27,402 nt of DNA, taken from IMG/VR virus record IMGVR_UViG_3300002460_001114, positions 16,012-43,413 of that record; one strand, written 5' to 3'. The stretch comes from a virus. How positions within the stretch are numbered: the first letter of the stretch is position 1; each line of letters begins with the position of its first letter. A program made the translations under genes and the position numbers. The notes under the pieces are model-generated. The model was not told the origin of the DNA, did no database searches, and saw only the letters and a program-made list of their open reading frames with translations. Below are positions 2,046 through 24,993 of the stretch, piece by piece.

Positions 2046-3913
2046 CTCCTGAACAAATTTGGTCTCAATACGGAGGAGAAATTACAGCTAGAACGGGAGC
2101 GACAAAATTATCTGATACACAGATTAATTTGCAACTCCCCGATGGCACTATCGTGCCTGCCGGCGTTAATCCGGGACAAGCGGCTACGCTCCAACTTGGC
2201 GGTGGCGGTGTTTTTGACCGCGGGACGCCCGAAGGCGCAGCAAAAGCTGCACAATTTCCTGTAGATCCGAGATATGCTTCACCGGAAGCAACCCGGGCGG
2301 CTTTCGGTGTAATTCCTACGAATGCCGGTGTTACTACTCCCGCAATTCAGGCGAATCCGCCTCAGGCGCCTTCAGCGCCGGCCCCTTCTCCTATTGGACC
2401 ATATACGGTTGCGAGCGGAGATACGTTAAATAAAATTGCTGCTAAGAACGGCTTAACGCTTGACCAACTCTTAACCGCAAACCCGCAATTTAAAACAGCA
2501 GGAAGAAGCGCTGACTTAATTTATGTCGGAGAGAAAGTTAATATTCCCGGAAAAGCCGGTACTACTCCGGCACAAGGAACACCGCCGCCGGGTACTCCTC
2601 CGAATCCTCCCGGTTCTCCGGCCAATCTCTCTACCGGAAGCGGAGCGTCAAATATAACAAGCTACATGAAAGATTTGATGACAACCGTCAATTCTATGCT
2701 TGGTATTGATACGGAAAAATTGGGTATTGAAACAACACAGAAACAGATACAGGATTTTTTCTTGCAAAAAAAAACAGGCACAGCGATTCTTGAAGAAGAA
2801 ATGAAGCGTTTCGGTGTGGAAGAAACGATGAGCTTGCGGAAAGAATTAAGTAAAACAATACTTGAACAAACACAGAGGCTAAGAAAAATGCCGGAAGATA
2901 TTAGAAATACCCTTGCCGATGTCGGCGTGTCGCAAACTCAACTTGATAGAATAGTGACTGCCCAAACGCAGAAACCTGCGGAGATTTTAAGGGATTTGCT
3001 CGAACAGCGCGGGGCATTGACAGAAGATATTAATGAGTCAATGGCTTTTGTTAAATTATTCGCCGAAACCCGCATGGAAGATGAGGCCGCACAACTGGAA
3101 GCGTTTAAGTGGGATTTGGAATTTAAGCAGGGTAAACTGAAAGACTTGGAGGATGATAAGAAAACAATTCTGAATATGGCGATTGATGATAGGAAAACAT
3201 TAATGGGATATGTTTTGGAAGCTATGCAAAATGACGCGCCTAAAGATGTTATTGATAAAGCCTTGCAATCCGGCGATTCCGCAACAGCTCTTTCAATTTT
3301 GGGAAGATTTGCAACAGATGAAAAACTTGAAACTTCATATCAGGATATAAATGGTAACAGAGTATTGATTGTTACAAATAGTAAGGGGAAAATAGTTTCT
3401 AGCACTGTTTTGGGTGCAAGCGGGACTAATGATTCAAAACCATTATCCGGACTTGAACTTGGTTATTTCGCAGAGAGCGATTTATTGGTAGGTCCTAAAT
3501 TACAAGCCGGCATGACTATGAAAGATGTTCAGAGGATTAGTACTGAGGTTCACAAACCTAGAGAATGGACTGAGTCAGAATTGAAAACGCAATTTGAGCA
3601 ATTTAAAGTTAATAAAGTTCCGGAAAGCACTGCAATTACACAGATGTATGCTGAATCAGCTTTTGTGGATAAAAATCTTGCTTTGAAAGTATTGAAACAA
3701 GTTTACGGTACTTACACAGGAGAGGAAGAAAAAATAGAAGAAGCAAAAAACTATTGGTTAGGTGATAGCGGCGACACGGGACTTAGTGGAGTTAAGGCTA
3801 CGCCGGGGACGCAAAAGAATCTAACTCCTAATATTGGTCCTATTAATTTTGAAACTTTGAGAGGAGATAATATTTATTTCCCATCTGCTTATACACAGCT
3901 AGGTGATTATTAA
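2042..3913 (+). CDS. LysM-containing coiled-coil virion protein (623 aa)
   Basis: Residues 1-118 are Gly/Pro/Ala-rich. Residues 121-168 form a LysM domain (start YTVASGDTLNKIAAKNGLT, then LLTANPQF and YVGEKVNIP), a peptidoglycan-binding module. A Pro/Gly linker follows (about 170-195), and then a long, charged helical and coiled-coil region (about 215-410; KELSKTILEQTQRLRKMPEDI, LEEEMKRF). The C-terminus is mixed. There is no signal peptide, so it is unlikely to be exported alone and more likely travels in the virion, where the LysM could dock on or steer the particle through the cell wall. It overlaps the upstream stop (ATGA) and lies directly before the giant virion gene. An internal-core or tail-tip protein is a reasonable inference. 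No cell-wall hydrolase motif is seen in it. Confidence 0.65.
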   Translation: MTPEQIWSQYGGEITARTGATKLSDTQINLQLPDGTIVPAGVNPGQAATLQLGGGGVFDRGTPEGAAKAAQFPVDPRYASPEATRAAFGVIPTNAGVTTPAIQANPPQAPSAPAPSPIGPYTVASGDTLNKIAAKNGLTLDQLLTANPQFKTAGRSADLIYVGEKVNIPGKAGTTPAQGTPPPGTPPNPPGSPANLSTGSGASNITSYMKDLMTTVNSMLGIDTEKLGIETTQKQIQDFFLQKKTGTAILEEEMKRFGVEETMSLRKELSKTILEQTQRLRKMPEDIRNTLADVGVSQTQLDRIVTAQTQKPAEILRDLLEQRGALTEDINESMAFVKLFAETRMEDEAAQLEAFKWDLEFKQGKLKDLEDDKKTILNMAIDDRKTLMGYVLEAMQNDAPKDVIDKALQSGDSATALSILGRFATDEKLETSYQDINGNRVLIVTNSKGKIVSSTVLGASGTNDSKPLSGLELGYFAESDLLVGPKLQAGMTMKDVQRISTEVHKPREWTESELKTQFEQFKVNKVPESTAITQMYAESAFVDKNLALKVLKQVYGTYTGEEEKIEEAKNYWLGDSGDTGLSGVKATPGTQKNLTPNIGPINFETLRGDNIYFPSAYTQLGDY

Positions 3914-3915
3914 AT

Positions 3916-6900
3916 ATGCGTTTACCTGCAAAAAGCACTCAAGTAAATCCTCTCGATGACCCTGAGTTTTTAAGAGAATTTGCTAAAGAACAAGGCATAG
4001 AAATCCCCGAAAAAAAAACGGGTGGTATTTTCGGTACTCTTGAAAGAGCAATAGATATTTTTAATGCTCCACTGCAATCTGTCGGAGGGCTTTTATCCGG
4101 CACAACAATGGCGGAAGGCAGGGAAAAAAATATTACTCCAGGACAAGCAATTTTCGGCAAGCCAGATGAAAGTAAACCTAGATTCGGAGCCGAAAGAGTC
4201 ACCGGCGCTGTTGCAAGAGCTATAACAGATTTTGTTTTTGATCCTGTAACATACGCGACCCTCGGTACCGGCACTTTATTTAAGCCCGCTGTAAAAGTCG
4301 GTATTAGGGGATTTGAAAAAGTTGCGATTAATAAAAAAGCAAAGGAACTAACTACAGAGCTGGCAACCGAATTGGCCGGAGGGAAACAAGTTACTGCCGC
4401 TATAGAAAAAAAGGCCAAAGAAACTGTTTTTCGTTTAGTTGGAGACACCGGTGCAAAAACCGCACAAGGCAGAGGAGGCATAGCAATGATTAAAAGGGCG
4501 TTCGAAAAAACAGGCAAACCATTTACGGAAGAAAATCTTAAAGAAGCAATAGAAAAAGGCGTGACCGGGCTTATCGATCCAGGTGGTTTGAAATATATGG
4601 GCAAGGTTCTTATTCCTGGTAATGCTTTAAAATATCCGTTTAAAAAAGCATTTAGTAGTATCTCGCAAGTTTTACGGCAAACTGAAAACGGCAAACTTTT
4701 CGCCGAAGGATTAGATAAGATAGGCGCGGGTGTAGGTGGAATATTTAAAAGAGATATATCCGGATTACCAGGACGTTTTGTTGTTTTAAAACAAGCGCTA
4801 TCAGATGATTTAGTAAGAGCCGGAGATGATTTAAAAAAAGAAACGGAAACAATTTTTGGGCTTTTGTCTCCGGAACGGCGCAAGAAAATAGGAAGGGCTT
4901 CGTGGGATGCTTCCACCGGCAAGGTTGATATTAAAAAAGCAACAGAGGGGCTTGACGCTGAAGAACTAAATCTTTTTAATAGAATACAGCAGATATTTGA
5001 TAAAGAAGCTGAAGAAAACTCTGAGCGAGGAATGTTAAAACGGGCAAGAGAAACTTACATACAGCATATTTATAAAAATGCGGACAAGGCAAAATTAATG
5101 TTTGGGAAAAAAGGAAGCCCTGCTTTTTCCAGAGAAAGAATGATGAACTTTACTTTTGATGAAGCTGTAGCTGAAGGATTAGAGCCGGTAGAAGACATAG
5201 GTGAACTTTTTTATACTCGTCGCATGAGCGGGATAGAGGCTAATAAGTTCCAAGATTATTTTTGGGGTACGCCAACTATTATTAAGCGTTTAAAGAGCGG
5301 AGCACCCGCCCGAGATCCGGCTGGAAAACAAGCGCTAGGAGATGATTTAAAAAAAGAAATTATAAAAATCCAAGGCAAACCCAGTAGATTGGCAAAGGAA
5401 CTGGGCATAGCCGGAAAGGTGCAAAAAACCGAACACGTTCCATTTGAGACATGGAGAAACGAAGGCAGAATTATAAACGCAGTAGATGAAGCTATAAAAG
5501 CACATAGAGCAATCCCTCTTGAGCCTTTTGTTGATGTTCACGGCAGGCTTCCTAAGAATATGAATGTCGGACCTTATAAATTTAATTCTATAGATGAAGC
5601 CCAAGCAGCCTTAAAAGAATTTAATGATTTGAAATTACTTAGAGAAGGCATAAGAACGCACTTGGAAACTTCGCCTGAACGCTTAGATTTATTAGGTCAA
5701 GCGCTTAAAATTTTAGGTAAAGGTGATATATATGACCAAGGGACGTTGGGTCTTGCGCCCAAGATAACCGGGGGAGTTTTTAACGGAGAGAATTTTAATG
5801 ATGTGCAAAAAATAGCCACTGATATGCAATCTTGGGTTATAGACCAATTAAAAATGGCAGACGCTGGAAGAAGAATACAGGATCCAATTACTCTTGAATG
5901 GTCTGGGATGAAATCTACTTTCCCTGATTGGGTGCCGAAAGATTTAAGGCGCAGGGATTTGTTTGATTCTGTTATAAAACATTTGCAAAACGGTACAGTC
6001 CCGCGAGAAACAAAACGTCTTCCTAAAGATATGGTATTTACAAAAGATACTCCGTTGCCGGATGTTGCCGATGCTAAAAAACTATATGATTTAGCAAAAA
6101 AAGAAATGGCACAGCTTACAGGATTAAGTGTTGATGAGTTTGACGAAGTTTTAACCACCCCTTCTTTGTTTCCGGAGAGAGGCGGTCTGGCAATCAGGGA
6201 CATGGAATATGTGAAACAGCTTGTAAAAGAAAACCCCGAATTAAAAACGCGCGTTTTAGAAGCCGGAGAAAGATTAGTCAGGCTTGGAGATATAAGTACT
6301 CAAGTCCCGAAAGAATATAGAGATTTTAATATTCCTGAAAACATAGCTAAGGATATACTCCAGATGGATAAACAGCTTTTGCAATCTGATGATATTAATT
6401 ATTTATTAAAACAATATATAAAATGGATGAACTTTTGGAAAGGTTCTGTCACGGTTTTGTTTCCTTCTTTTCATGGCAGGAATGCCGTGTCTAATATCGG
6501 AAACTTTGCCCTTGATGCCGGCTTAGAAGCTATTAATCCGATGGCACACGCGAAAGCCGTGAAAATTCTATCCGGAGCAGACGGAGAAATTGTGAATGAA
6601 TTTGGGACAAAATATACTTTTGCCGAGATAAGAAAACTGATGGCAAAACATCAAATAGTTCAAAGCCAATATAGCAGAGCGGAAATAACAAAATTTTTGG
6701 GGCGGGAAGGTTTGGAAAAACAAGCCGGGAAATTAAATGTATCTGCTTACGGCCGAACAGTCGGCAGAAGCATAGAAAACGAAGCTCGCGCATTGAGTTT
6801 TATTAAACAGTTAAAGCGCGGGTTTGATCCTGAAGACGCGGCTGCTAGAGTTAAAGAATTTCTCTTTGATTATGATAATCTTTCAAAATTTGAAAAATTA

Positions 6901-23396: not shown

Positions 23397-24200
23397 ATGG
23401 AAGAAATAGTTTTATACAACGGCCGGGTTCATCTTTACATGAATCACGAACGGCATCTTTATTACGTTTCTGTTGACGGAGGAATAATGAAACCAGTTAT
23501 AGGTTGCACAACCGCCACGGGCGTTTTGGATAAGCCTGCGCTGATAGGCTGGGCAGTAAAGTTGGACTTGGAATATCTTGCGGCGTGCATTCAGCCGAAT
23601 AAAAAATATGATGGGTTAGAACTGGCGGGCTTTTTTGAAGAAGCCAAGAAGCAACATAGAATCCGCGTGGCTGACGCGGCCGCTGTCGGCACTAGAGCAC
23701 ATGCTTGGGCTGAATCTTATATCAAAGGACAGAAACCAAAAGTGCCGAAACACAAAAAACTTAAATTAATTGTAAATAACTTTCTTCAATGGGTTGAGGA
23801 ATATAAAGTAAAGTTCCTGGAAAGCGAAAAGAAGATTTATTCTCTTGCTCACGACTACGCCGGAACAATAGACTTTGAAGCCGAGATCAACGGAGAGCTT
23901 TGCATAGGAGATTTTAAAACCTCTTCAGGAATATGGGACGAATACAGATTTCAGATAGCCGCTTACAATAACGCTAGAGCTGAAGAAACCGGCAATAATT
24001 ATAAAGCCTCATGGATAGTAAGATTCGCTAAAGATGTGAATTTAATGTTTCCGGATATTTTTGAAACTCTTTATATCCCAAAAGAAGAACACGAAAAAGA
24101 TTTTCAAGGATTCTTGGGAGCGTTGGCGGCGAAGAGAAGATTGATGGAACTGGAACGTGAGAAAAAAATCAAGCGTCTTCAGAAGGAAATTAACTTATGA
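23397..24200 (+). CDS. PD-(D/E)XK (RecB/Cas4-type) nuclease (267 aa)
   Basis: The central motif YAGTIDFEAEINGELCIGDFKTSSG gives the catalytic Asp (TID) and the Asp-x-Lys pair (GDFKTS), and RFQIAAYNNA supplies the following Gln and Tyr; this is the RecB-like exonuclease pattern. An early helix GTRAHAWAESYIKG provides the usual His. The C-terminus is a basic helix (AAKRRLMELEREKKIKRLQK). The ATG at 23397 is preferred to an earlier in-frame start at 23334, because the first 21 codons of the longer version lie in the structured intergenic element. It likely resects DNA ends during phage recombination or replication. No four-cysteine iron-sulphur cluster is seen. Confidence 0.8.
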   Translation: MEEIVLYNGRVHLYMNHERHLYYVSVDGGIMKPVIGCTTATGVLDKPALIGWAVKLDLEYLAACIQPNKKYDGLELAGFFEEAKKQHRIRVADAAAVGTRAHAWAESYIKGQKPKVPKHKKLKLIVNNFLQWVEEYKVKFLESEKKIYSLAHDYAGTIDFEAEINGELCIGDFKTSSGIWDEYRFQIAAYNNARAEETGNNYKASWIVRFAKDVNLMFPDIFETLYIPKEEHEKDFQGFLGALAAKRRLMELEREKKIKRLQKEINL

Positions 24201-24226
24201 ACCCCCTAACCCCATACCAAAAGTGA
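24197..24226 (+). other. Nine-codon coupling ORF before the methyltransferase
   Basis: The nuclease stop overlaps an ATG (ATGA at 24197-24200) that opens a 9-codon frame, MNPLTPYQK, whose TGA (24224-24226) overlaps the GTG start of the methyltransferase (GTGA). The chain of overlaps could hand ribosomes on to the GTG start. The frame differs from that of the methyltransferase. Confidence 0.35.
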
Positions 24227-24993
24227 ACCATCTAGACCTCTTTAGTGGAATTGGCGGATTCGCCTTAGCAATAGATAACATATTTTATGAAGAAAAAAAC
24301 GAACACATCTTCTGCGATAACGAGCCATTTGCACAAGCCGTCCTCAAAAAGCACTGGCCGGAAGCGGAAATCTTTGGTGACATCACAGCCTTTAGTCCAA
24401 CCGACCCAACCGACATTATTACAGGAGGATTCCCCTGCCAAGACATCAGTAACGCCCGTTCCTGGACTACCCAAGGAGAGTTTATTGAACAAGGAATCCG
24501 GGGAAAAAGAAGTGGTCTCTGGACGGAAATGGCAAGGATTATCAAGGCAACAAAGCCCAAGTTCGTGGTCATTGAAAACGTCCCAGCACTCGTCAAAAAA
24601 GGACTCCGAACTGTCTTACGAGATTTGCACGCAATCGGGTACGATGCGGAATGGGAAATTATTTCTGCCGCTTATGTGGGCGCCCCACACCTTAGGAAGC
24701 GATGCTTCGTTGTGGCTTACCCCATCGGCTTCGGACGGAAGCAAGAGAGCATCATTTTCAGCCAAATCACTCGCCAAACGATTCGACAAACACCCCAATG
24801 GGAATCTAGCCGAACAATACGCAAAGAAGACGGGAAAAAGACTTTGCCCGAATCTTTTGGAATACTTGATGGGCTACCCAGAAAACTACACGATGCTGAA
24901 CGAATCAAATCTCTCGGAAATTCTATCGTCCCCCAAGTAGCGATGGAGATTTTACAAGCAATTAAAGATACCCCCCTAAGAAGAAACCAATGA
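24223..24993 (+). CDS. dcm: C5-cytosine DNA methyltransferase (256 aa)
   Basis: All core motifs of C5 methyltransferases are present: motif I DLFSGIGGF (residues 5-13), motif IV GFPCQDIS with catalytic Cys72, motif VI IENV (118-121), motif VIII RKRCFVVA (158-165) and motif X GNSIVPQVAMEIL. At 256 residues it is short, with a small target-recognition region (about 170-225). The GTG at 24223 is preferred because MNHLDLFSGIG is the normal family N-terminus; an ATG at 24157 lies inside the nuclease gene. It follows the nuclease and ends in an ATGA overlap with a mini-frame. It probably shields phage DNA from host restriction. Most of it is overlapped by another long frame in the +1 register. Confidence 0.85.
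   Translation: MNHLDLFSGIGGFALAIDNIFYEEKNEHIFCDNEPFAQAVLKKHWPEAEIFGDITAFSPTDPTDIITGGFPCQDISNARSWTTQGEFIEQGIRGKRSGLWTEMARIIKATKPKFVVIENVPALVKKGLRTVLRDLHAIGYDAEWEIISAAYVGAPHLRKRCFVVAYPIGFGRKQESIIFSQITRQTIRQTPQWESSRTIRKEDGKKTLPESFGILDGLPRKLHDAERIKSLGNSIVPQVAMEILQAIKDTPLRRNQ
24287..24940 (+). CDS. Overprinted +1-frame ORF within the methyltransferase (217 aa)
   Basis: Frame +1 relative to the methyltransferase is open for over 650 nt and its product does not look random. It has EDSPAKTSVTP, SWSLKTSQHS, TQSGTMRNG, SDASLWLTPSASDG, HPNGNLAEQ and CPNLLEYLMGYPENYT. From memory this order (SPAKTS, SLKTSQ, SGTMRNG, LWPTPxASD, LNPxFVEWLMGFPxGWT) is shared by proteins annotated beside or as C-terminal parts of phage cytosine methyltransferases. 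Motif matches fall on the same DNA as methyltransferase motifs: SPAKTS over FPCQDIS and LWLTP over VVAYP. It could be a truly translated second protein, or that database family could itself be a by-product of alternative-frame annotation. It has no Shine-Dalgarno sequence; the ATG at 24287 is uncertain. Confidence 0.4.
   Translation: MKKKTNTSSAITSHLHKPSSKSTGRKRKSLVTSQPLVQPTQPTLLQEDSPAKTSVTPVPGLPKESLLNKESGEKEVVSGRKWQGLSRQQSPSSWSLKTSQHSSKKDSELSYEICTQSGTMRNGKLFLPLMWAPHTLGSDASLWLTPSASDGSKRASFSAKSLAKRFDKHPNGNLAEQYAKKTGKRLCPNLLEYLMGYPENYTMLNESNLSEILSSPK

Follow-up and report, generated by a model that had tools for sequence, protein, structure and literature searches.

The window analysed here comprises 27,402 nucleotides and is the terminal 27-kb portion of a virus contig 43 kb long (IMG/VR record IMGVR_UViG_3300002460_001114). 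On its + strand, positions 24223..24993 hold a gene, here termed alpha, that begins with GTG; an in-frame alternative GTG is located further upstream at 24157. The alpha product, read in frame 0, matches PF00145 (E 8e-41) and phrog_363 (E 6e-62) and represents the large domain of a C5-methyltransferase, with the PF00145 motifs I, IV (PC), VI (ENV), VIII and X. Motif I (LDLFSGIGGF, 24232..24261), motif IV (GGFPCQDIS, which includes the catalytic Cys, 24424..24450) and motif VI (ENV, 24574..24582) were placed by alignment, motif VIII (HLRKRCFVVAYP, 24688..24726) by the relay of codon positions described below, and motif X (GNSIVP, 24916..24933) by both. A preliminary description of this DNA had rightly seen a C5-methyltransferase in frame 0 and an open +1 frame, with the positions of their motifs, but it also credited frame 0 with every C5-methyltransferase motif, and this is wrong. 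The PF00145 match ends at position 179 of 324, M.HhaI aligns with frame 0 only up to residue 167 of 257, and a classical motif IX was not found in frame 0 of the window gene. Because the target-recognition region and motif IX are absent from the frame 0 chain, alpha by itself does not count as a full C5-methyltransferase of the single-chain type. An AlphaFold model of alpha has an HhaI-like large domain (Z 24.9 to M.HhaI) in which motif X is confident and residues 171-225 are of low confidence.

Nested within alpha on the + strand is a second gene, beta, recognized by stop depletion, a match to phrog_1008, selection in +1 and an hhalign match to motif IX. The +1 frame is free of stops from 24275 to 24937, and the ATG-started ORF within it spans 24287..24940, in agreement with the 654 nt given previously. 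The +1 motifs named at that time also lie where they were said to lie: motif IV reads EDSPAKTS in this frame, motif VI is overlapped by SLKTSQ, and motif VIII reads LWLTP. The target-recognition region of beta (TPSASD...GKRL, 24719..24838), assigned from dN/dS and from counts of frame 0 stops, corresponds in the alpha reading to an open and poorly conserved linker, and is followed by motif IX of beta (RLCPNLLEYLMGYPENYT, 24839..24892), assigned by hhalign against single-chain methyltransferases. Translation of beta in the window probably begins at ATG 24287, or else at TTG 24374 or GTG 24377, which are close to the region where homologues usually have the beta ATG; a clear Shine-Dalgarno sequence is absent at the beta start in the window. 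Upstream of motif IV, ATG codons in the +1 frame are only slightly enriched over the null (87 versus 80.6), too little to fix where beta begins, and in 7 of 167 homologues the open +1 stretch upstream of this motif lacks any start codon. A 9-codon ORF (MNPLTPYQK, 24197..24226) in the same frame as beta overlaps the stop of the upstream gene (ATGA) and the start of alpha (GTGA), and these overlaps suggest possible translational coupling. The virus also has an N6/N4-type DNA methyltransferase (PF01555) on the - strand of the window at 16396..17061.

The openness of the +1 frame was assessed among 80 viral loci chosen by frame 0 motif IV only, to which earlier loci were added to give 96 distinct genes, a set selected for an open frame 0 and without selection on +1. 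Against a null of synonymous codon shuffling, which preserves codon usage and does not preserve position-specific effects, over the interval that begins with motif IV and ends shortly ahead of motif X, the +1 frame of these genes has 54 stops versus 486 expected and is stop-free in 62 of the 96 genes versus 2.2 expected. The +2 frame, which served as a control, has 977 stops versus 993 expected, and the shuffle null therefore behaves. In the window gene itself no +1 stops occur between motifs IV and X where synonymous shuffling predicts 4.6 (P <= 0.002). Depletion sets in about 10-20 codons upstream of motif IV and is nearly complete to motif IX/X; none was detected outside this stretch. Among bacterial relatives, 77 of 80 have the +1 family (53 +1 stops versus 305 expected), and methyltransferase genes that lack the family show no depletion (46 versus 42). 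On the strength of these counts the +1 frame is to be regarded as real. The preliminary description had left two alternatives, true dual coding or a database family that is an alternative-frame artefact of methyltransferase genes; the 96 homologues favour the former, and phrog_1008 is not such an artefact. The pattern that was to speak against dual coding, random breaks in +1 and no excess constraint on frame 0 synonymous sites, is the opposite of what was found, namely a ninefold depletion of stops together with constrained synonymous sites.

The frame under constraint changes along the gene, from frame 0 (motifs I-VIII) to +1 (after motif VIII to motif IX) and back to frame 0 (motif X), with the switch to +1 falling directly after motif VIII. 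Between motifs VIII and IX an OLGenie-like count gives a dN/dS of 0.15 in +1 and 1.19 in frame 0, substitutions at frame 0 codon positions 1/2/3 amount to 0.33/0.12/0.08, so that the fast position is the third codon position of +1, and comparisons between loci show better similarity for the +1 translations in 1345 pairs and for those of frame 0 in 76. Since related sequences are non-independent, disjoint pairs were used for the codon-position test: in 60 independent pairs, position 1 changes more than position 3 in 56 and less in 1, with a ratio of change of 4.2 (3.4-5.3). Frame 0 is nevertheless open in the same interval, with 0 stops versus 254.6 expected given the +1 protein; this count comes from 77 loci chosen by the +1 protein. 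The 80-locus set found with the +1 protein is selected on +1 and without selection on frame 0. As frame 0 is open even where it is unconstrained, both readings matter. In the core (motifs IV-VIII), frame 0 synonymous divergence among the closer pairs is 0.58 versus 0.90 outside the overlap, and the part of beta that lies over this core is under modest constraint (dNN/dNS 0.63 versus about 0.80-0.90 outside the overlap).

The identity of the +1 product was approached through profile comparisons. An HMM search of both products, as proposed in the preliminary description, yielded the frame 0 matches given above and, for the +1 product of the window, a match to phrog_1008 over residues 43-156 (E 5.3e-10); a Pfam search of the same product returned no recognised family. 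All 22 of the 22 records tested match phrog_1008; the match of XFactor_67 has an E of 9.5e-62 and that of Camperdownii gp75 an E of 3e-93. The +1 signature LNPxWVEWLMGFPxGWT aligns with the classical motif IX of single-chain enzymes, RRLTPxExERLQGFPDxWT, and hhalign scores this pairing at E 9.8e-5 with 50% identity across 26 columns. A search of PDB with a first, divergent +1 alignment gave no match; with a larger profile the top two chains are DNA methyltransferases aligned at motif IX, at an E of 0.7 that is weak alone. The AlphaFold model of beta alone is poor (pLDDT 62), and a fold search with it gave no match. Only 4 of 80 bacterial relatives were found to have a classical motif IX in frame 0: two of them, L238 and L269, are without the +1 family, and the other two, L234 and L236, have a weak +1 score. 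The pair L050/L063 also has motif IX (LNPDWVEWLMGY) in frame 0; in these two the +1 frame meets stops immediately upstream of it, and the fast codon position moves from 1 to 3 there (25/8/4, then 7/1/19). As read from these substitutions, the pair constitutes a natural experiment in which selection has moved into frame 0 along with motif IX.

A tblastn search with the +1 product matched 56 phage records, and in 8 of the 9 annotated matches examined the product lies in +1 relative to an annotated methyltransferase; in the exception, XFactor, the annotated gene is the +1 frame itself and the methyltransferase lies in the overlapping frame. With the +1 protein of locus L016 as query, all 80 loci retrieved have a methyltransferase in the same frame relation, and stand-alone +1 genes without a methyltransferase were not encountered among them. 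Across phages and prophages the nested arrangement recurs in genomes by the hundreds. Relatives that include L112, L119 and L137 have alpha and beta starts 4 nt apart, as in GTGAATGAG, and a single ribosome-binding region could therefore serve both. In the split phage relatives Samy, Ovechkin, TaylorSipht and Camperdownii the first ORF terminates after motif VIII, the +1 ORF has LPTP modules, EWMMGWPxGWV and motif X (IGNGVxPQQA), and the two ORFs match consecutive parts of one profile, phrog_116.

Several loci show further variation. Nested pairs are present in E. coli prophages (L276 2999-3736 and L277 2999-3760), where the RefSeq annotation has alpha only; the L277 gene is marked pseudo and has a stop in each of both frames. 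In L015 a zinc-finger/HNH-like ORF (3591-4079) begins with a GTG that abuts the stop codon of beta (TAAGTG); it shares the frame of beta and sits between motifs IX and X, frame 0 of alpha is open throughout, and it resembles the ShiLan-type hidden endonuclease of PMC11855218. At L023 (1865-2722) motifs I-VI are fused in-frame to the beta reading, and motifs VIII and X are missing from the usual frame, which may reflect a natural frameshift or an assembly error. PHROG 10223 and 26627 match the C-terminal part of beta only (L191-L194, L005 and L016), which makes them possible pieces of the beta family that carry different labels.

The presence of motif IX in +1, the relay of constraint between frames and the L050/L063 pair together make a two-subunit C5-methyltransferase the most likely product of the window. 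We have high confidence that the locus encodes a heterodimeric enzyme of the M.EcoHK31I kind, the genes of its two subunits being nested one in the other on a single strand. Comparison of homologous sequences establishes that both frames are kept open, that selection is relayed between them and that motif IX is situated in +1; the mechanism proposed from this goes further. The catalytic large domain would come from alpha, in which motifs I-VIII are followed by the poorly conserved open linker and motif X, and the small domain, with motif IX and the target-recognition region, would come from beta, which starts inside alpha. The two would be made as separate polypeptides from one mRNA and would assemble into a single enzyme that presumably methylates the phage's own DNA, with beta determining specificity. 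What the preliminary description missed is that the second frame appears to encode the portion that alpha lacks, and not an unrelated protein. A more tentative extension, which may well not hold, is that beta acts as an interchangeable, modular specificity subunit in which the WPTPxAxD repeats are target-recognition units swapped between phages and the frame 0 reading is a mere stop-free linker.

Other explanations have to account for the same observations. The sequence of constrained frames, 0, +1 and 0, is what would be expected if two programmed frameshifts, one into +1 after motif VIII and one back to frame 0 before motif X, yielded one continuous enzyme. Such an enzyme has no need for a stop-free +1 frame across motifs IV-VIII or for a stop-free frame 0 between motifs VIII and IX (0 versus 254.6), in relatives the two parts are separate ORFs, and in one subfamily the alpha and beta starts lie 4 nt apart; we consider two frameshifts very improbable. 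Conservation and freedom from stops in +1 would equally suit an independent overprinted protein with no relation to the methyltransferase, as would the first half of the +1 product, which lies over the core and has motifs of its own. Its C-terminal signature, however, is the methyltransferase motif IX that frame 0 lacks, this motif stands in frame 0 of L050/L063, and the +1 protein accompanies a methyltransferase at 80 of 80 loci. An independent protein is even less probable, and was rejected on the motif IX match and on L050/L063.

That the +1 frame is itself an artefact, its openness and similarity mirroring frame 0 conservation and codon bias, can be given almost no credence. The core motifs SPAKTS and SLKTSQ are indeed conserved frame 0 motifs shifted by one base, but the shuffle null predicts ninefold the +1 stops observed while +2 matches its own null, methyltransferases without the +1 family are undepleted, and between motifs VIII and IX the conserved frame is +1. 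Synonymous shuffling, with +2 as its control, led to the rejection of both a frameshift artefact and a codon-bias artefact.

A two-subunit C5-methyltransferase with the motif division of M.EcoHK31I is a known precedent for the arrangement preferred here, the nested heterodimer. Lee et al. are reported to have found in 1995 that the small subunit of M.EcoHK31I is encoded within the large-subunit gene in an alternative frame, and that both subunits are required in vitro; beta of the window is likewise placed inside the large-subunit gene. M.EcoHK31I, which acts at YGGCCR, has motifs I-VIII and X in its large subunit and motif IX in its small subunit (PMC3404938), and by this described division the window agrees, with motifs I-VIII and X and no motif IX in the large subunit and motif IX in beta. 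The predicted target-recognition domain of EcoHK31I is in the large subunit (PMC3404938), whereas the selection pattern in the window puts this region in beta; EcoHK31I is also part of a restriction-modification system, while the window gene belongs to a contig of a phage. Like the enzyme proposed for the window, M.AquI consists of two polypeptides with the division behind motif VIII, but enzymes of its type have motif X in the small subunit, whereas in the window motif X belongs to alpha and beta is wholly nested in alpha. The split relatives are M.AquI-like, with motifs I-VIII in alpha and the target-recognition modules, IX and X in ORF 2.

The family of the +1 product, PHROG 1008, is annotated as 'DNA methyltransferase', and this annotation is silent on any overlap with, or completion of, a second methyltransferase gene. 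The ShiLan-type hidden HNH endonuclease likewise involves out-of-frame coding in a phage methylase gene; it is a homing insertion (PMC11855218), whereas the second frame of the window is most likely part of the enzyme, and the passages of that article consulted make no mention of the beta frame. A description of the nested family in phages was not found in the freely searchable journal articles. Within the same literature, the spread of such enzymes through phages, a target-recognition region carried by beta and a relay of selection between frames all appear to be unreported.

The locus offers an example, rare in bacteria and their phages, of a long overlap of same-strand genes that is backed by strong evolutionary evidence and makes clear functional sense, and nested methyltransferase pairs are a good case for the study of one sequence shared by two frames. 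If beta is indeed modular, a conserved alpha could be retargeted by exchange or multiplication of beta modules. The cytosine methyltransferases annotated from one frame in phages and prophages, which number in the hundreds, are probably half enzymes. The overlapping frame would conceal the DNA-recognizing part, so that neither cloning nor the prediction of specificity should succeed with the annotated gene alone.
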